From: Spiroplasma corruscae
GTDB taxonomy: Bacteria > Bacillota_I > Bacilli_A > Mycoplasmatales > Mycoplasmataceae
Direction: 5' to 3'
DNA: 64,000 bases
NCBI RefSeq assembly: GCF_002237575.1
Contig: NZ_CP022535.1
Span: 558,001-622,000, forward strand
In this document: positions 24,732 to 53,592 of the stretch, in pieces
Layout: each line of letters starts with the position of its first letter
Numbering within the stretch: the stretch's first letter is position 1
Notes under the pieces: generated by a model
Told to the model about the DNA's origin: nothing
The model's database searches: none
What the model saw: the letters and a program-made list of their open reading frames with translations, nothing else
Translations under genes and position numbers: made by a program

Positions 24732-25772
24732 TTATATAATTTCTTTTGAGTAGTTTTTTCTTAATAGTTCAATCATATGTCAAACTTCTGCTACAAACTT
24801 CTTAGTACCATTAATTACTGATAATAATGGTTGTTCTCCGATTTTAGTAGGCAATTGTAAAGTATCAGCAAAATATTTATCAATACCTTTTATTAAAGCA
24901 CCACCACCACAAATTGTGATACCATTTCTAAAAATATCTCCAGCTAGTTCAGGAGGCGTATCTTCAAGCACTTGAACTGTTAAATCAACTATTCTAGATA
25001 CTGGTACTTTTAATACTTCTCTTACTTCTTCTGGTGTGATTTCAACTTCTCTTGGAAGCCCTGAAACAACATCACGTCCATAAACCTTCATCCTTCTTTC
25101 ATCTGGAAAAATACTTAATGAACCAATATTAATTTTTATTGCTTCTGCTGTTTTTGAACCAATTTCAAGTCCATATTGAGATCTAATGAACTTTTGACAC
25201 TCTTCATTTAAATAATTACCCGCTACTTTTATTGATTTTGATAATACAATATCTCCAGATGCTAAAACTGCAACATCAGTAGTCCCTCCACCTGTATCAA
25301 TTATTAAATTACCAACTGGTGCGTATATATTTACACCACCACCAAGTGCAGCCATTTTAACTTCTTCTTCTATAAAAACATCTTTTGCACCAAAGTTATA
25401 TGCTATTTTTTTAAGTGCCGATTTTTCAAGTTCTGTAATAACTGATGGGCATGCTAGCAACATAATTGAGTTTTTTAATGTTTTAGTTACTCTTAACTTT
25501 TCAAATATATATTTTAACTGCGCCTCTGTAGCTCTAATATCTGTTATCACTCCATTAACCATAGGTTTAATTACTCTGATATTCTTGTTACCTTTTCCAA
25601 TCATTTTATAAGCTTCTTTACCAACAGCAATAATTCTATTTTCATTTATTTTATAGGCAACAATTGATGGTTCATTATAAACTATACCCTGTCCATTAAT
25701 ATAAACTAATGTATTTGCAGTTCCTAAATCCATTGAAACAAAAATTGGTTTGCGTGTAAATGATTTCCCCAT
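24732..25772 (-). CDS. mreB: Cell-shape actin homologue MreB
   Basis: 346 residues. Phosphate-1 loop VSMDLGTANTLVYINGQGIV at the start, connect region, phosphate-2 LIIDTGGGTTDVAVL near 160 and adenosine motif GITICGGGALIKGID near 290. Forms ATP-dependent filaments under the membrane. Spiroplasmas carry several MreB paralogues that give helicity and swimming; only one is in this window and I cannot say which. AAGGAG ribosome site. The 160-base stretch upstream (25773-25932) holds no gene. Confidence 0.95.
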
Positions 25773-32040: not shown

Positions 32041-32810
32041 AATACACCTCATTCACTAAATTAAAAACTAAAGAAAGATTAAAAATAGTTTTTAACATTA
32101 TATAAAATCATAATAATTATATTAGGTTTTATAGTAATTCTATTTATTATATACTATATTATTGATAATCGATAAATTATAAATTTAATTTAAGATTTTT
32201 TCACTACCAATAATAATTTCGAAATAATTTAAATTTTTTTTATTATTAATTTTAAAATTATGATAAAACTAATTCATCTTAACTCTATATTTATTACAAA
32301 AATATATCAAAAGTTATTTTTAACATTTAACTTAAATATTAGATAAAAATGATATTATAAAATACATTTTACTAATTTTTAATAATTACTATTAATTTAA
32401 TTTAATTACGTTTTATTTAAGTGACTTTAACTAATATTAACATTAGATAATAATTAAAATAATAAATAATTAATAATATTTTTTAAGTATAATTTGTGAA
32501 ACTTCGAATATTTTATTTCAGAAAAAATACTTTACACACTTTTTTGTCTTATTTTTGTTAATGTTATATTAAACTTCATTCATTTATTAAAATTTATTCT
32601 GTTCTCATTTTAACACTTATTTCTATTCTTAATTTTATTAACCAAATTTAATAAGCTATTTTGTGAAAAATTATTTTTTATTAACACATACGACTATACT
32701 TTTAATAATCATAAAAATGATTTCTTTTAAGAAATATAATTATTAATTATTCATAAATAGTATCTTAACAATTATTATATATTTTATTTAACAATTATAA
32801 GCATCGAATA
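32041..32810. other. Long AT-rich gene-free region
   Basis: About 770 bases of almost pure A/T with no ORF, tRNA or repeat that I can support on either strand. Its left end must hold the promoter of the exporter pair. Confidence 0.6.
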
Positions 32811-32834
32811 AAAAACCTAGCAAGCTAGGTTTAA
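32811..32834 (-). terminator. Terminator downstream of the RpiR gene
   Basis: Compact perfect stem AAACCTAGC / GCTAGGTTT with a two-base loop, then A/T runs on both sides. It lies 145 bases beyond the RpiR stop. The interval 32835-32977 contains only a 14-codon ORF. Confidence 0.65.
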
Positions 32835-32977
32835 AACATTAGGAATTTTAATTGATTAGAATTGCTAAATTAATTGAACATTAAACATTGTAAATGAATC
32901 AGCAATTTAAACATCCTTTCCAATTAAAATTATATTATTAAAAATATTGTAATTAATTTTATAGTGTAAAATTAATT

Positions 32978-33778
32978 TTAATTTATACATAGTTTATCAA
33001 TAGAAAAATTATTTTTATTTAACTCAATTAATTTATAATATATAATTCTTAAATAGTATAATACTGAGAAATAACTTTCTTCATTAGTTTTGTTAATCGA
33101 TTCGTTTAAAGGAAGTTTTAATATTAAATTTTTATTTTTTATTAATTGACTATTATCATTATTTGTAATTGTTATTATATTGATATTTTTTGCATTTAAT
33201 TTTTCTATCATTGATTGATAATCGGGGTTATTTAATGAATAAGAAATGACAATTGCAATATCATCGTTTCTCATAATTTCTGCATAAGATTTTTGACATA
33301 TTATGTCTGGTACATAAAATGTCTTAAGATTTATTTTTATAACTCAATTAATAAATAATTCTATTAAAAATGAGTCATTTCCTTCTCCAAATAAATATAC
33401 GTTCTTTGCTTTATAAATTAAGTTTACAATTTTTTCTATTCTATTTTTAGAATATGATGCTGCACTATTAACTGTATTGTTTATTAAATTAGTTAATTTA
33501 CATTGAACCTCCTCATAAGGAGTTTCATTTTGTTCTTCTACTATTTTTTTATGGGTTTGTATTGTTCAATATAAACTTTTATACCCAGTTAAGCCTATTT
33601 TTTTACAAAATCTTGTTATAGTTGAAGCACTAGTGTTTGTTAATTTTGAAACATCAAATATAGTATAGTTATCTAAGCTTTCAAAATTATTTACAATAAA
33701 TTCTGCTATTACTTTGAAACTAATATTCTCTGAATGTTTTGCTATTTGATTAATTTGATTAAAGATATTTTTTATCAT
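32978..33778 (-). CDS. RpiR/MurR-family transcription regulator
   Basis: 266 residues. N-terminal helix-turn-helix with the family signature FDVSKLTNTSASTITRFCKKI (residues about 40-62). A SIS sugar-phosphate binding domain follows (VYLFGEGNDSFLIELF, then IAIVISYSLNNPDY). Likely senses a phosphosugar and controls the adjacent gene. Stop of the upstream MupG-like gene is 25 bases away; ribosome site weak. Confidence 0.88.
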
Positions 33779-33803
33779 TAAATTTCACTACTACTTTCTG
33801 TGT

Positions 33804-34907
33804 TTATTTGATGATATTAAATCTGAATTTATTTCAAGGTTTAATATTTTTCAAGAGTAGTAAATCATCTTTTGATATCGTACCAATTTTATTAACGCTA
33901 TCTTTAAAATCTATATAATTATCTTTAAGTACAATTAAAACTTCTTTCTGATAATGTTTATTGTTGGAGTTAATTATACAAACATCTCCATAGTTATATT
34001 TATTATTTAAGTTATTTGGCATAATATCATTTTTAAATACCACTCTCGGTTGAGTAGAACGTATGAAACTTTCGTTAGCGTCCCCTCTTCAGAAATGATT
34101 GTTAAAATTTATAATATCCAATTCATAATCAGCAATATTTTTTTCTAGTTTGATATCAAATTCGAAAACGTTATCAAACTTCAATTCTCTAATACTTTTA
34201 ATTTCTTCATTGCTTAATGGTTGATTCCCGACATAAATTGATTCAAATAAATTTGTTGATAATGCAAGTTTTATTTGATTTTTAATTTTTAAGTTACGAT
34301 AACTTTCGCAACTTACTAATTTACTGACATCAAATTTTTGTGGTCCTTTTTTACCATAATCTGATCCAACAAAGCAACTAACTTCTATGTCTAAGTCTCT
34401 AAATTTTTTAGTTGACTCTAAAAATAAGCGATCAGATAGTGCGCTATTTGCCAATGGATAAAAATTATGACAACCAAATAATCTATCTTTATTTGGCATA
34501 AAGTCACAAATATTTGTTATAAAGTGATCATTATTACTTGCGTTAATTTGTATATCCAAATCTTGGTATGTTGTTTGTGCAACTTTTTGTGCAAGAAAAG
34601 GTGCATCCAACCTAATACAATCAATACCTTTAGTTTTAAAAAAAGCTAATTCATTATCAGTTATTTTATACATTTTCAATGTTACATCAGAAATATCTAC
34701 TACTGTATAATAGCCCATATCATGGGCTAGTAAAATAATTCTTTCATAATATTCTAATAAGTCTTTTTCAGGCTCTTCTCCCAACTGTAAGATCGATAAA
34801 AATACTTTTCTAAAACCTGCCTCATAACAAGTTTTAAGATAATTGATTGTTTCTTGTTCAGTAAAATGTTCTGGGTATACTGAAATACCAAGATATTTAT
34901 TCCTCAT
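33804..34907 (-). CDS. DUF871 / MupG-like 6-phospho-N-acetylmuramidase family protein
   Basis: 367 residues. N-terminal TIM barrel starting YLGISVYPEHFTEQETINYL, with FRKVFLSILQLGEE and YTVVDISDVTLKMY, then the HNFYPLANSALSD region; a small C-terminal beta domain follows a UGA-Trp. In known bacteria this family cleaves MurNAc-6-phosphate disaccharides. The chosen ATG has an AGAGG site; a longer in-frame form would begin 14 codons upstream. Forms an operon with the RpiR regulator. Confidence 0.85.
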
Positions 34908-35036
34908 AAAGTAATACCTCTTTCCAATAATTATTAAATAAATCAACATATTTATTTTAATATAAAAAATAAGTTTTTAACAACTTATACTTTTATGAAA
35001 TTATTGGTATAATATATAGTAATAATTTTTTTCTAA

Positions 35037-40444: not shown

Positions 40445-40643
40445 AAATAAAGGTTTACCCTTGTGCATTATCTTTATTTAAAATACTTTCATTTTAAAAT
40501 AAATTAAAAAAAGTTTGAAATGCAATTATCATTAATATTAACAAACAAAAAAATAAATAATTTCATCATTTTTTAAATATTCTTTTAAATTTGGAAATTA
40601 AAAAAATTAAATTCAACTACATTTTTGGCTTATTTATATCCAT
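40445..40643 (-). pseudogene. Truncated remnant of the second ABC-2 permease gene
   Basis: Translation from the ATG that overlaps the end of the upstream permease gives a short peptide, a TAG, then a stretch FKRIFKKWWNYLFFCLLIL and later a TAA. The intact paralogue at 43926-45542 has FKRIFKKWWNYFFFALLIL at the same place, and the DNA matches almost base for base for over 150 bases. The rest of the copy is gone. Confidence 0.8.
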
Positions 40644-42288
40644 GACTAAGCGCAATCTTTCTATATCTTATGTATGATAGTCCTGAAATTAACATAAAAA
40701 TAATCAAGTAAGAAAAATATATAGTAAAATAGTTTGCAAAATTTACATTAACTTCTTCAATATTATCTAATCTTGGAGGTTGATTGTCTTGTTGAGCATT
40801 TTTGAAATAATTAATATCTAAAGGAATAGTTGGTGTTTCAAATGTGTCATTATCTCCTTTAGAAAAACTATTATAGTAATATAAGCTATTTTTAGAATAG
40901 TAATTTCCAAATTGTAATTGTGCAAATTGATTAAATGGGTTAATATTTGCATTTAACTTTAAATCATCAATTAAACTTTGTTCTGGTGATATAGCAACTA
41001 TATTGTTTTTTTCATAACTTATTTTAAAATCATTTTGTCATTTTAAAATATCATATGCTATTGAAGATAAGAAAAAGTAAAAATCAAATTGATCACTTGT
41101 TTTATAATTTTTAAAAGTATCTTCAAAGTATCCTGCATTTATTGAATTCTGTAATAATAATGAAGATAAGGTGTAAGCAGAAGACTTTTGTAAATAATTT
41201 ATAAAATGATTAGAATAGTCTTTTAATATATTTAAAAAATTTGCATAATCTTTATTTGTTAATAAATCACTAATTTTGTTTACTATATTATAAATTCTAT
41301 TTTCTTTCATGGATTTGAAGTTAGCATAATTTATATTGTAACTTCCCACAAAAGTATCCTCTAATTTAAAACCATTAGAATTTGGATTTGCAAATACTTG
41401 GTAGTTATCATTAAATAAATTATCAATATATTTAATGAAGTTTAAAAAGTTATCACCATATGGTTTTCTATCATCATTACTTAATTTATTTAAAACATAT
41501 CAATAATTACCAGAAGCTCATTGATATTTGTCTAGATAATTAAAAATAAAACCAATATCAAATTTTTCAAAGTTAACTAAATAATCATTAAATATTGCAT
41601 CTTTTTTTATATCATTATTAAATTTTGATCATTTTTCTAAAGTTTCATTATTTGATGCATATGAATACAACTTTGAAGTTTGTGCATAACTCAATGAACT
41701 AAATATATTTGCTAACCCAACAAAACACGAAATAATACCAACTATTATTAATACAACTTTTGAATTAAAAATCATCAATAAAAATAACGTTATAGAAAAC
41801 ATCATTACTACTAAAAGAAAGTAAAAAAACATAAAATTAATAACTTTAAGTCGAGCTTCATTAAAGTATTCACTACTAATTGATAAAGTAAGTAATGACT
41901 GAATTGTAAATAAAAATAAGACAGTTATTAATGAAAATGATATTAATATAACTATTCTTTGAATATAAGTTTGAAATATGCTTATTCCACCCTTAATTTC
42001 AAGATTAATTTTTCCTTGTTTTTTATCAACATAAAAGCAAATGGTTGTTAAATAGATCACAACTACTGAAAGCATTATAATATCAAACAGTTTTTTACAA
42101 AAAAATGTTCTATTAAAAAATGAATCTATCTTTTTAACATCAACATTTGAATTATAATAATTATAAAAAGAAGTTAATTCTAATAAAGTAGATATAATTA
42201 CAAAAGTTAATGTAATTGATCATAAAGCCTTGTTTTTTATAATGTTTTTGAAGTTAATACCTAATAATTTAAAATTAAATTTTTTCAT
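40630..42288 (-). CDS. ABC-2-type permease subunit (copy 1)
   Basis: 552 residues. Membrane helices at about 22-45, 65-90, 100-125, 140-165 and 165-190, then a long (about 300 residues) extracytoplasmic domain and a final helix (TIYFSYLIIFMLISGLSYI). Very similar over its whole length to the gene at 45529-47193, including KKQGKINLEIKGGISIF and QPPRLD. No ATPase gene of its own; it may use the one at 43168. GGGTGA ribosome site. Confidence 0.75.
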
Positions 42289-42369
42289 TATATTCACCCA
42301 CATTTTTATAAATTATACCACATTTCTCCAAGTACAATTATAAACTAATCATGGTTGCGAGAAAAATAA

Positions 42370-43925: not shown

Positions 43926-45542
43926 TTAAACAATCAATGTTTTTTTAAATTTAAAATAGTTTACGTATATTAAACCTAAACTAAATAATAATAAAAATAC
44001 ATAAAATCCTTCGTAGCTAAAAACCTTTACATTTTTAGATTTATATCTTAGTAATTCATTATTTGCTTTATTTTCATTAGTTTGCTTTTCTTCTAGATTA
44101 ATAAAACTTCTGACATACAAAGGACTGTTTTCATCTAAACTATTAATTATTAAACTATTTTCATTATCATTATTATAAAATGATCCATAAGATAAATTTA
44201 TGTATAGTTCAAGTGGATTTAAATAAAAGTTAGCTTTTAGCTTATTTAAATTTTGCTGATAGTCTGACACAACTAAACTTTTAAACATATCAGATTCACT
44301 GTACTCATACATTATTTTGTAAGTGTTTGCTATAAATCAATATAAAGAAATTTCTTCTATAGAGTTGTACTTTTTAATGTCTTGCCCTCACAGGCTTTCA
44401 TCAATTATTACTTGGTAATTAACTGATATAAATAAATCTGTAATAAGTTTGTTGAGTAATAAAAAGTTTTTAGAAAAATCTTTAAAAATTTTTATAAAAT
44501 TATTATATTCTTCATTTTCATTATTATAATAACTATCAATTATGTTATAAAAATAATTTGAGTCAAAATTTTTTATTGTTTGATTATCAGATTTATTAAA
44601 TATAAATTTTGTCAAATCAATTTCATTACTTGCTTGATTTTTATTAGCATAATAATTATGTGTTGATATTAGAAATTGTTTTAGGTTTGGAGATTTATTT
44701 TCAAGCATATTTAAAAATTTGTCATTTAATAAATTTCCTTGAAAAATTGTTACATCTCTTAAACTATTTATATCAAAATTAATTTGTAAAGTATCTTTAA
44801 AGAATTGATTATCATTAATGTTTTCAGCAATATAACTAATTTTTTTGTAGATTAAACTATCATAAGCAAGAGTTTGTGAAGTGTTATTAACATTTGTTAA
44901 TGGAATCATACTTTTTTTAATGATTGGCCATAAATACATATTGACATTTAATATAAATATTAAAATACCAGCTAAAACATAAGTTAAATATTCATTAAAA
45001 AAATTAAAGAAAAAAAAGCTTAAAGTTATTGTAAGTATGGCAATTATTAAATAAAAACTGTATTTAGTCATAAATATTGGTATAAAAAAATTGAGTGACT
45101 TAGGTCAAAAACCAATAAAACACGCTTCAATAATTACTAAAAAAATTATTAAAATAAAGGTATAGCTAAATAAAACAAAAAATCGATACATTAAAGAACT
45201 TTTTAAATTTATACCTGATTTAATTTCAAGATTAAATAAATATTTAGACTTATCACTGTGTATTAAAAATTGAGCTATCATAAATGAATAAATCATAATT
45301 AATATAGAAACTAAAATACTTTTTATTAATAAAATTTGTAATATAAAGCTTGATCCTTGTGCATAATCTCCATTTAAAAAACTTTCATTTTTAAAATAAA
45401 TTAAAAAAAAAGTTTGGAATGAAATTGTTATTAATATTAACAAAGCAAAAAAGAAATAATTTCATCATTTTTTAAATATTCTTTTAAATGTCAAAATTAA
45501 AAAATTAAATTTTATATCTTTTTTTAACTTATTTAACTTCAT
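43926..45542 (-). CDS. ABC-2-type permease subunit 2
   Basis: 538 residues. N-terminal basic stretch (KLNKLKKDIKFNF), helices at about 28-50, 65-90, 110-135, 150-175 and 180-200, a large extracytoplasmic domain, and a closing helix SYEGFYVFLLLFSLGLIYV. It starts at an ATG lying inside the last codons of the upstream permease (14-base overlap) after AAGGTAG. A decayed second copy lies at 40445. Confidence 0.75.
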
Positions 45543-47193
45543 GTCTAAGCACTACCTTTCTATACTTTATGTAAGATAGTCCTGCAACTACCATAAAGAT
45601 AATTAAGTAAGAAAAATATAATACATAATAATTTGTGAAACTTACATTAACTTCTTCTAAATCGTCTAATCTTGGAGGTTGATTATTTTGTTGATTACTT
45701 TTAAAATATATAAATTCTAAAGGAATGGTTGGTGATTCAAATGTATTATAAAATACTCCTCCTGATAAACTATTGTAATAATATAAACTGTTTTTAGAAA
45801 AGTAATTACCAAACTGTAGTTGCGCTAATTGATTAAAAGGATTACTATTTGCATTTATTTTTAAACTATCTATCAAACTTTGTTCTGGTGATAAATCAAT
45901 TTCTATATTTTTTTCATAATTTACTCTAGTATTATTTTGTCAATTACAAATATCATATGCTATTGAAGATAAGAAAAAGTAAAAATCATATTGATCACTT
46001 GTTTTGTAGTTTTTAAAAGTTTCATCAAAATAACCATCTTCTACAGAAATTGAAATAAAAGATTTATTAAAATTATATGCAATGGACAACGGAGATTTTT
46101 CTAGGTATTCTAAAAAGTAGTTAGAGTAATCTTTTAATATATTTAAAAAATTATAATATTCATCATTTTTTGATAATCCTATAATTTTATTAATAATATT
46201 GTAAATTAAGTTTTGTTTTAAAGTTTTATAGCTAGTATATCCTTTTCTATAATTGTATACGAAACTATCTTCGAGTTTAAAACCGTTTGAATCTGGATTA
46301 TTAAATAACTGATAATTATCATTAAATAACTTATCCATATCTTTAATAAAATTTATAAAATTATCACCATATATTTTTTTATCATCATCAGTTAAATTAT
46401 TGATAACATATCAATAATTTCCATAAGCTCATTGATATTTGTCGAGAGTACCTTTGTTTTTATATACTTTTTCAAAGTTCGGTAAAAATTCATTAAAATA
46501 TTTATCTGATTTTAAATTTTTATTAAAATAATTTCATTTTTGAAATGTTGTTGTAGATGACCCATGTCTATATAAATTTATACAGTCATTGTATCTCAAA
46601 GAACTAAGTGTACTAGACAATGGAATTAAACAAGAAATAAAACCTACAACAGTTAACACAACCTTTGAATTAAACATCATAATAAAAAAAAATGTTATTG
46701 AAAATATCATTATTGCTAAAAGAAAGTAAAAGTACATAAAGTTAATGACTTTAAGTCTTGTTTCTAAAAAATACTCATTAATTGTTAATGTAAGTAGCGA
46801 TTGTGATGCTAGTAAAAATAATATTATAGTTAATATAATTGATGCAATTATAATTATTCTTTGAAGATATATTTGAAATAAACTAATACCGCCTTTTAAT
46901 TCAAGATTTATTTTACCTTGCTTTTTATCGATATAAAAACATAAAGACGTTAAATAAATAACAATCACTGAAAGCATTAGCATGTCAAATATTTTTTTAA
47001 AAAAGAATATTTTGTTAAAAAGATCATTAATATTATTGACGTATATGTTTGAATTAAAATAATAATTAAAAAAAGATGCTATCTCTAAAAATGTAGACAT
47101 TAACAAAAAAGTTATTGTAACCGATAATAAAACTTTGTTTTTTATAACGTTTTTATAGTTAAAACTTAATAATTTGAAATTTAATTTATTCAT
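45529..47193 (-). CDS. ABC-2-type permease subunit 1 (copy 2)
   Basis: 554 residues, a paralogue of 40630-42288 with the same blocks (CFYIDKKQGKINLELKGG, RLKVINFMYFYFLLA, NKSFISI, PPRLDDLEEVNVSF). N-terminal helices, large outer domain, C-terminal helix. It heads an intact permease-permease-ATPase operon. The upstream gap (47194-47419) shows no gene. Confidence 0.78.
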
Positions 47194-47485: not shown

Positions 47486-49363
47486 CTATGATTTTCATAT
47501 ATAAGTAAATGTTCTATATTTACCACCTTGTGAATAAATTTGATCTGTTCTAAAATTTAAATTTAAAAAATCTAATTTTATATTTATATCAATATAAGGC
47601 ATTCCTGATCAAGGTCTTGTCATTTGAAGACCAGTATCATTATAACCAAGTGATGGTACATTTCCACCACTTGGACTAAAATTAAATTCAAAATTACTTT
47701 GGTTACCTTCATCTATTATTTTTTTTCTTTTTTTAATAAAATCTGTTTCATTTTTATTTAAAGAGAAAAAGTTGCTTAGGTCATTAGTATTGTGAATATT
47801 ATTAGCATTATTTCAAAAGAATTCGTTATCTGATTTTACTGTGAATAATGAAGTATTCTGACTTGGACTAGTATAACTATCCTCAAGTTTAAATATTTCT
47901 GAAAATTGGTTTAAACCATTTTTTATATTTTGTTTTATAGATTTATAAGTTCTTGATTCATTTGTCAAATTATCCAATGATTCAGTTATATCAACTGTTG
48001 ATCCATACCCTATTTTTAATTCGTTCATATCTTTTGTGAAATCACCTATTTTTAATTGAATATTACTTAAAGATAAAAACTTAATAGATAGAAGTTTTTT
48101 CAAATTAGATTTTACTGTTTCATTTTCTAAAATTTGTGAATCAGCTTCAGATTCTAAAACATTTTTAACAAATGTATTAGATCAATTTTTAATATTATCA
48201 GAAAGGTAATTATCTAGACTACTATTACCTTCGCCTTTATTAAACATAATACTTTTATATAATTCACTACCATTTAAAAAGCTATCATCATTTCAACCAG
48301 TTCGGTTATTTTTTCATGAATAGTTTGATACGCTTGGCTCTACTTTATAATCTCATAAATTTGAATCATTTAAATCTTCAAAATTAAATGAGTTATCATT
48401 TTCATTTTTAGGTGAGAATTTAATAAAGTCTTTTAATTCACCTAATGATTCTAAGCTTTTATTTAATTCTTCAATTATAGCCTTTAATGGATCATTAAAT
48501 TTATTTTTTAATGTTTCTTTGATCTTACTTGAATTTTTAACAAATTTATCATCTGATTCTGATTCTTTATTAATAGAAGATAAGTCTAAATAACCATCAT
48601 TATTTTCATTATTTAAATCTTTTTGTAAATAATTCCATTTTATAGATTTAGATTTATCTGAAATACCTTCTGCTAATCCTTTATATGTTGTTAATGTATA
48701 ATTTAATGTAGATCTTTGATTAAAATTAGTTACATTTGTGTTGTCAGCATTTTTATATTTAATACTAAAGTTAAAATTTGCAATGGTATTTAATATATAA
48801 CCATCTTTATTAACTGATTCAGAATTTTTAGATTCGTAGATACTTAGTTTCGATACATCACCTTCTGTATCAGCTAATGATTCATCAATAGTTATAATAT
48901 TAGTAACATCACTTAGTAATATATCGTATTCTGATTTACTTTTTAATGCTTCAACTTCTTCTTTAATTTTATTATAGTTTGTTTTCAATTTTAAATCATT
49001 AAAATAGTTAGTTTTATTATCACTATTTATATTAAAAATATCTGTTAAGTTAGTGTTATTAGTTTTATTTTGAACATAATTTGTAAAGTAACTTGAATAG
49101 TTATTTTTTTTAAAAAATGAAAAGTTTTTATTCCCATCATCATTTTCAAACCAACTTTGTGAAGCAAGTTTAATGTTTTTATTAATTATTTCACTAACTT
49201 CTTTCTTAAATGTATTTAATGTTTCGTTATAACTGTCTACTTCGTTTGTTTCTGGTGCTGGATCTACATCATTACTGGGGTTTTCTGAACCACATGCAAT
49301 AACAGCTGTTGGTATAGTTGATCCAATTAATATAGTTGTTAATATAGATAATAATTTTTTCAT
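47486..49363 (-). CDS. Large lipoprotein
   Basis: 625 residues with a signal MKKLLSILTTILIGSTIPT and lipobox VIACG. The mature protein is Asn/Ser/Lys-rich with two similar halves; several W residues are UGA codons, without which it would seem broken in three. The best ribosome site (TAGGAGGG) fixes the ATG at MKKLL; an upstream in-frame ATG lies 11 codons earlier. Near the ABC-2 cluster but separated by a terminator. Not clearly MOLPALP. Confidence 0.8.
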
Positions 49364-49453
49364 ATTCCCTCCTAAATATTCATAAGAATTGTACATTAAT
49401 AGTTTATAAAATTCAACAAAAAATATAAAAATTAACTAAATTATTAAGATATA

Positions 49454-52329: not shown

Positions 52330-53592
52330 TTATTTAGTAATAAATTTATTTGATAATAAAGATACTGATCAATAAACAAAAATCATTATAAAATTTATTA
52401 AATACAGTTTATTAGAGTTTTCATTATGAACTGATAAATAATTTAAAACGGCTGAAATTATAAATATTATTATTGGCATGATAATATTTAATATTAAATT
52501 AATAGTACTAAATGATTTATATTCAAATAATTCAAGTAAGCTTGTAAAAATATAACTTAACAACATTGTTGATAAAACAATATAGACTAAATAACATAAG
52601 AAAGTAATTAATTCTGATTCATATCAATCATTAGATTCTTTTAATATTGGAGATAAAATTACATTTAAAAACATATCTAAAAAAATAAAACCAATAAACA
52701 TTAGATAAATTGATAGCTGTAATCAGAATATTTTTATTTTATATTTCTTTTTATTATAAATTAAATTACTAACAAATAATAAAGTTGATACAAAAAATAA
52801 TGATATACCAAATGAACCGTAAAAGAATCTGTTTAATGAATAATCAAATGCATATAAAGAACCACCAATTAATGCATAAAGTGATAGTGTTATAAAAAAT
52901 GATGGGTATAAAAAATATGAGAATCTTGAAATATATAAAGAGGTAATCTTTCATTTATTGGCTTCATATTCATGTGAATGAATATCTTTGTTATGAATAG
53001 TTAAATAAAAACTAATTACAAATCAACTATTGTTATTATAATATTCATTAACTCTTCTTAATTCAAACAAGTTTTCAGATTTATTATAGGCTAAACGATC
53101 TTGTTCTTTATGAAGTACATTTTTGATGTTTGAAGAAACTAAATTACAAGTTTGAAGTAAATCACTAAAATCATGATTGCTTAATATTCTCGTAGTTATC
53201 TCATCAATTAATAAGTTTAAATATATTGGTTTATACTTTATCGAACTATAGTCTTTAATACATGATTTTATAGCAACTATATCTTCTTTTTTTATATTAG
53301 ATTTTAAATTATCTAAATACTTAATAGTATTTTCAAACTCAAATAAAATATTATTTCTTAAATTTTTTTTATATTCTTTTAAATTTTTTATATTAAAAAA
53401 TAATATGGTTTTAATTGTACCATATACAATAGTAAAAATTGACCCTAATATTAACAATTGAAATGGACTAAAAATTTTATATAGCATATCTTCTTCTTCA
53501 GTGTCTTTTAAAAATTGAATTCAAGAACTATATAAATAATATAAAAATGTCATTATTGTAATAAATACTATTTCATAGATAACTTTTTTCAT
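52330..53592 (-). CDS. Polytopic membrane protein, unknown
   Basis: 420 residues. Two N-terminal helices, a charged cytoplasmic helical domain of about 130 residues (KNLKEYKKNLRNN onward), then six or more C-terminal helices. Several UGA-Trp codons. AGGGG ribosome site. Resembles no family I know. The gap 53593-53822 upstream has no gene. Confidence 0.65.

Follow-up and report, generated by a model that had tools for sequence, protein, structure and literature searches.

Why does a cell without a wall keep an enzyme whose name belongs to wall recycling? Mollicute cells have no peptidoglycan, and the automatic name MupG implies peptidoglycan recycling in just such cells. The question is raised by two adjoining genes in the window, the 64,000-nucleotide stretch of Spiroplasma corruscae DNA analyzed here. 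The first-pass annotation had read them as a MupG-like enzyme with an RpiR regulator, forming a MurNAc-6-phosphate recycling module that might use muropeptide sugars of bacteria in the host gut, and had offered a different phosphosugar substrate as the alternative. Both genes are indeed present, with Pfam domains over their cut-offs.

The enzyme gene (positions 33804 to 34907, minus strand) encodes an intact protein of 367 amino acids. Its Pfam domains (PF19200 and PF05913), phmmer and fold matches, conserved residues and dN/dS mark it as a predicted cytoplasmic 6-phospho-disaccharide hydrolase of GH170, the MupG family (former DUF871). The ATG at 34907 is preceded by GAAAGAGG, a further in-frame ATG lies upstream at 34949, and the ORF ends at 33804; the ORFs of enzyme and regulator are uninterrupted only under genetic code 4, in which TGA encodes Trp. 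Pfam MupG_N and MupG_C matched at 222.2 and 106.9 bits (cut-offs 24 and 24.4), and these two domains span nearly the entire protein. The AlphaFold model (mean pLDDT 86.9), a predicted barrel with a C-terminal beta domain, aligns to PDB 1x7f with a TM score of 0.88 at 28% identity; this Bacillus cereus protein, also matched by phmmer (162 bits), is the nearest solved fold, and its entry describes it as uncharacterized. A loss of MupG residues, which had been named as evidence against a working enzyme, is not seen: among 82 family rows, 41 columns are conserved at 85% or above, and the protein keeps 40 of them, departing only at C178. It is the only GH170 copy in the genome. Across three species (three pairs, Nei-Gojobori), the enzyme and RpiR genes are under purifying selection, with dN/dS values of 0.076-0.096 and 0.167-0.198, and the nearby EngB GTPase gene, at 0.130-0.169, is higher than GH170; all of these values are approximate because dS is near 1. 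A chance ORF is ruled out by the domain scores and selection, and a decaying pseudogene is disfavored by dN/dS. Judged by its sequences, the GH170-RpiR pair is real and functional-looking.

The RpiR-family regulator gene (32978 to 33778, minus strand, 266 amino acids) lies 25 bp downstream of the enzyme gene on the same strand. The pair is kept in two related loci, L075 and L079, and the spacing and conservation suggest that the two genes are probably co-transcribed. The regulator matched HTH_6 (PF01418) and SIS (PF01380) at 41 and 52 bits, each over its Pfam cut-off, and was not identified as MurR by the NCBI model NF012026 (34.9 bits against a cut-off of 408). Its SIS motif region reads SYSLNN. 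The related loci L078 and L086 have SYSLSS there, two Bacillota proteins have SNSGET and SNSGES, and S. aureus has TNQGSH. The usual phosphosugar-binding motif of SIS domains is SxSGxT; the glycine of that motif is absent from this regulator. Upstream of the enzyme gene, a perfect inverted repeat (ATAAGTT-N6-AACTTAT, 34969 to 34988, no strand assigned) is a speculative candidate operator. It has a single exact copy in the window, where matches with up to two mismatches are at chance level (4 found, 4.56 expected), and it is kept in L075 and broken in L079. Downstream of the regulator, a terminator-like hairpin, AAACCTAGCTTGCTAGGTTT followed by a T run, was read by eye at 32813 to 32832 on the minus strand. 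Elsewhere in the window, MreB is encoded at 24732-25772, and five large ORFs (40630-42303, 43926-47193, 47486-49396 and 52330-53592) have no Pfam match at E 0.001.

The genome search for MurQ and a MurNAc PTS transporter that the first-pass annotation had proposed found neither. The genome is 99.8% complete, and the MurQ model TIGR00274 gave no match anywhere in it; in 12 of 14 control genomes that search did give a match. Twelve PTS_EIIC matches represent ten ORFs, and none of the ten proteins is MurP-like: the MurP model (NF007152) was never the best match, and its top score among them was 142.5 against a cut-off of 516, on a sucrose-type protein. Their best NCBI labels are glucose, GlcNAc, sucrose, trehalose, cellobiose-type (two), beta-glucoside, fructose-type (two) and one glucose-like IIC; these labels are approximate, since no protein other than the two fructose-type ones scores above an EIIC cut-off. 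A lack of phosphosugar uptake, which would have counted against a working enzyme, is contradicted by the same ten proteins. Within the genus, all 20 sampled genomes have GH170 and 2 of the 20 have MurQ. Among 298 genomes of the order, GH170 was found in 84, a strong MurQ match (E below 1e-50) in 49 and both in 32; GH170 occurs without strong MurQ in 52 genomes and with no MurQ match at E 0.001 in 48. GH170 and MurQ are associated overall (Fisher p 2.5e-9, genomes counted irrespective of relatedness), which tells against a simple claim that they are independent.

A tree of 61 hand-selected GH170 proteins splits into sides of 11 and 50 rows with support of 100/98. The 11-row side holds S. aureus MupG (a long branch of unusual composition, as flagged by the tool), nine others that adjoin MurQ and MurP, and a gene from Companilactobacillus whose neighbors are the same. 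The window enzyme lies in the 50-row side, outside the MupG branch, and S. aureus MupG did not group with it in this tree. Its sequence identity is 35.4% to a Latilactobacillus protein and 33.5% to one from Borrelia, against 24.0% to S. aureus MupG. The picture is broadly the same in an earlier tree, built from 79 mollicute rows, where the MurQ-linked rows and one other stand apart. On the missing MurQ, the missing MurP and this tree position, MurNAc-6-phosphate recycling is rejected as the role of the pair, and its use for muropeptide sugars scavenged from host gut bacteria is not supported; the alternative, a different phosphosugar substrate, fits both the gene content and the branch.

The related loci place the pair in a larger operon. 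The window enzyme forms one tight clade with those of genomes G088 (L075) and G100 (L079), the enzymes being 86 and 81% identical. Their sister genes in genomes G091 (L078) and G144 (L086), of the same genus as the window genome, lie in an operon with a GH29 alpha-L-fucosidase, EIIB, a small membrane protein, GH170, EIIA, RpiR, EIIC, a BadF-type kinase (in L078 under its Pfam cut-off, 28.3 vs 31.5) and a PQ-loop sugar transporter, and L106, from another genus, carries a rearranged version of this fucosidase-PTS-GH170-kinase operon. The PTS genes of these operons are of the lactose/cellobiose type. By tblastn, L078, the window, L075 and L079 have common flanks, namely two upstream membrane-protein genes and EngB downstream. 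Neither the window pair nor those of its two nearest relatives have an adjoining PTS gene, and a tblastn search of the window, L075 and L079 at E 0.001 found no other operon genes and no remnant of the missing PTS genes. In the window, RpiR and EngB are now separated by two ABC transporter genes. A 925-base A+T-rich gap without an ORF of at least 80 amino acids (32053-32977) separates RpiR from an ABC transporter gene, and no traces of the missing operon genes were found in it. Because the complete operon is the more widely spread form, we infer that its genes were lost rather than gained.

GH170 genes in other settings vary in their neighbors. In genome G085 (L100), from another genus, GH170 lies without PTS EIIA or EIIC of the operon type; a 32-residue EIIB-like trace adjoins it (L100:8166-8261) and suggests PTS decay there. 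Another GH170 clade, of 27 rows in the 79-row tree, is present in most genomes of the genus, mostly next to EIIA, ROK kinase, EIIC, EIIB and glucose/GlcNAc-type EII genes; this PTS-linked copy is absent from the window genome. Lactose/cellobiose-type PTS subunits, two or more per locus, accompany GH170 in 20 of its 27 genus loci, and MurQ does so in 2. A fucosidase is found in 2 of 20 genus genomes and is absent from the window genome. A second side-by-side pairing of GH29 fucosidase (PF01120) and GH170 was seen at L107:5334-7676 and L096:7026-9345, in a second GH170 sub-branch.

With moderate confidence, we propose that the window enzyme hydrolyzes 6-phospho-disaccharides inside the cell. Its substrate would most likely be phosphorylated GlcNAc-GlcNAc derived from chitin or N-glycan cores, and the enzyme would have been kept, along with its regulator, when the remaining operon genes disappeared. 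Within GH170, the branch of this glycosidase is not that of MupG but the one whose members are mostly linked to lactose/cellobiose-type PTS. In this scheme, a PTS would take up a beta-linked amino-sugar disaccharide and phosphorylate its non-reducing sugar, and the enzyme would then, most likely, cleave GlcNAc-6-phosphate-beta-1,4-GlcNAc (derived from chitin or host N-glycan cores) to GlcNAc-6-phosphate and GlcNAc. GlcNAc-6-phosphate would enter glycolysis via NagA, free GlcNAc would be phosphorylated by a sugar kinase, and the neighboring RpiR protein would regulate the enzyme-regulator pair. Enzyme and regulator would be the remnant of the larger operon (fucosidase, PTS EIIA, EIIB and EIIC, kinase) that is whole in related genomes; since the rest of it is gone from the locus, the substrate now probably enters via a cellobiose-type PTS encoded elsewhere. 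By gene content, a chitobiose route appears possible, as the genome has NagA (281 bits, cut-off 225.65), a GH18 lipoprotein whose catalytic motif (DGIDIDWE) is intact, two lactose/cellobiose-type EIIA genes and a ROK kinase. Of the 20 genus genomes, 15 have GH18, among them each of the three that carry the window-type pair.

The nearest precedent is the chb operon of Lacticaseibacillus paracasei, in which chbE (GH170) is needed for growth on diacetylchitobiose, and hydrolysis of the phosphorylated disaccharide was proposed on genetic evidence (PMC12791066). Set beside the published description of ChbE, which is not among the rows of our tree, the window enzyme shares its family; the L. paracasei plasmid GH170 gene that we compared is the MurQ-linked one. 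The ChbE system handles phosphorylated diacetylchitobiose delivered by a cellobiose-type PTS, with NagA downstream, and NagA is likewise encoded in the window genome. The systems differ in host and regulator, and the window enzyme has RpiR as its partner and no adjoining PTS gene. A cellobiose-type PTS operon like that of ChbE is not found at the window locus but is seen with the sister genes (L078, L086 and L106). ChbD-like proteins, which would mark ChbE-type operons, were sought near named GH170 genes: of 16 candidates by size and clustering in 79 loci, none was recognized by eye. Among the literature matches listed, no paper assigns GH170 to chitobiose in mollicutes or Borrelia as far as its entry shows.

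A broader scheme can be offered tentatively, in which Spiroplasma-like bacteria would feed on host-glycoprotein cores. Fucosylated chitobiose would enter by a PTS and be taken apart in the cell by a fucosidase and a GH170 phospho-chitobiase; sugar-asparagine would be handled by another PTS operon, which encodes an asparaginase-type hydrolase (L020); and the window pair would be a slimmed-down survivor of this system. The L020 operon (L020:7468-10674; C1:768467-771673 of the window genome) comprises a lactose/cellobiose-type EIIC, an Asparaginase_2 protein and EIIA, and may import and split sugar-asparagine. An NCBI model points weakly to beta-aspartyl-peptidase for this Asparaginase_2 protein. 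Three of the 20 genus genomes have Asparaginase_2, always beside EIIA and apparently the same EIIC.

We consider it unlikely that the enzyme is a 6-phospho-beta-glucosidase for cellobiose or related plant sugars taken up by the cellobiose-type PTS of the genome. Such PTS proteins are encoded, and the DUF871 gene celX lies in a cellobiose-induced Bacillus coagulans operon without another phospho-glucosidase (PMC6271610). However, a GH1 enzyme already adjoins the cellobiose-type PTS in L023, and the relatives' operons with fucosidase, BadF-type kinase or GlcNAc/glucose-type PTS genes point to amino sugars. It is more improbable still that the gene is a leftover without a present role, heading for loss. 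The rest of the operon is missing at the locus in three genomes, and the single GH170 copy is not the PTS-linked one common in the genus, yet the key conserved residues are kept and dN/dS is below that of EngB.

The 50-row side of the tree is not uniformly free of MurNAc genes. Several members, from L124, L129, L136, L171 and L147, have MurQ nearby, and GlcNAc-MurNAc is a possible substrate in these cases; several of the neighbor labels were assigned with small HMMs of our own making and should be taken as approximate (the Latilactobacillus EIIC MurP seed scored best as lactose-type). The window enzyme could by analogy hydrolyze PTS-phosphorylated GlcNAc-MurNAc to usable GlcNAc-6-phosphate and waste MurNAc, and lactose/cellobiose-type PTS, GH170 and MurQ do occur together, by approximate labels, in L124, L125, L127-L129, L136 and L171 (Kurthia). 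Yet the window genome lacks MurQ, and those of these loci that are in the tree (L124, L129, L136 and L171) fall in other sub-branches, and we regard this as very unlikely. A true MupG function, with uptake of MurNAc-GlcNAc from gut bacteria and release of MurNAc-6-phosphate, has an equally slim chance: the family is that of the S. aureus 6-phospho-N-acetylmuramidase MupG (PMC6262408), an RpiR-family regulator likewise belongs to the S. aureus mupG-murQ-murP-murR set, and MurNAc use has been predicted for some Spiroplasma species (PMC3563533, PMC4607517, PMC5726471, PMC12453411), but the two enzymes differ in branch and share 24% identity, and MurNAc-6-phosphate would be a dead end in a genome with neither MurQ nor a MurP-like protein.

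The paper that founded the family already suggested that paralogues differ in substrate (PMC6262408), and a word search of it found no mention of Spiroplasma or mollicutes. The family is a known one, and the window enzyme is a modest variant of it with a testable substrate prediction. Our first plasmid search covered the best 30 of 135 records. Plasmid records of Enterococcus and Clostridioides (L148 and L251) have GH170 with amidohydrolase and DgaE genes, which hints at another substrate in the family. In Borrelia, a GH170 homologue (L149:4698-5795) directly follows EIIA and EIIB of a cellobiose-type PTS and is annotated as an alpha3-beta1 integrin-binding protein; we take this gene to be BBB07. 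It is the Borrelia protein compared above, and it differs from the window enzyme in its plasmid location, its own adjoining PTS and the absence of RpiR; its setting suggests that it may be a cytoplasmic phospho-sugar hydrolase.

For the window enzyme, branch and gene neighbors point to host-derived chitin or N-glycan sugars instead of peptidoglycan. If true, this reading would solve the puzzle without cell walls and would link arthropod-associated mollicutes to host glycans. It predicts an easily testable enzyme activity, and suggests as well that the Borrelia homologue annotated as integrin-binding may act as a sugar enzyme in the cytoplasm.
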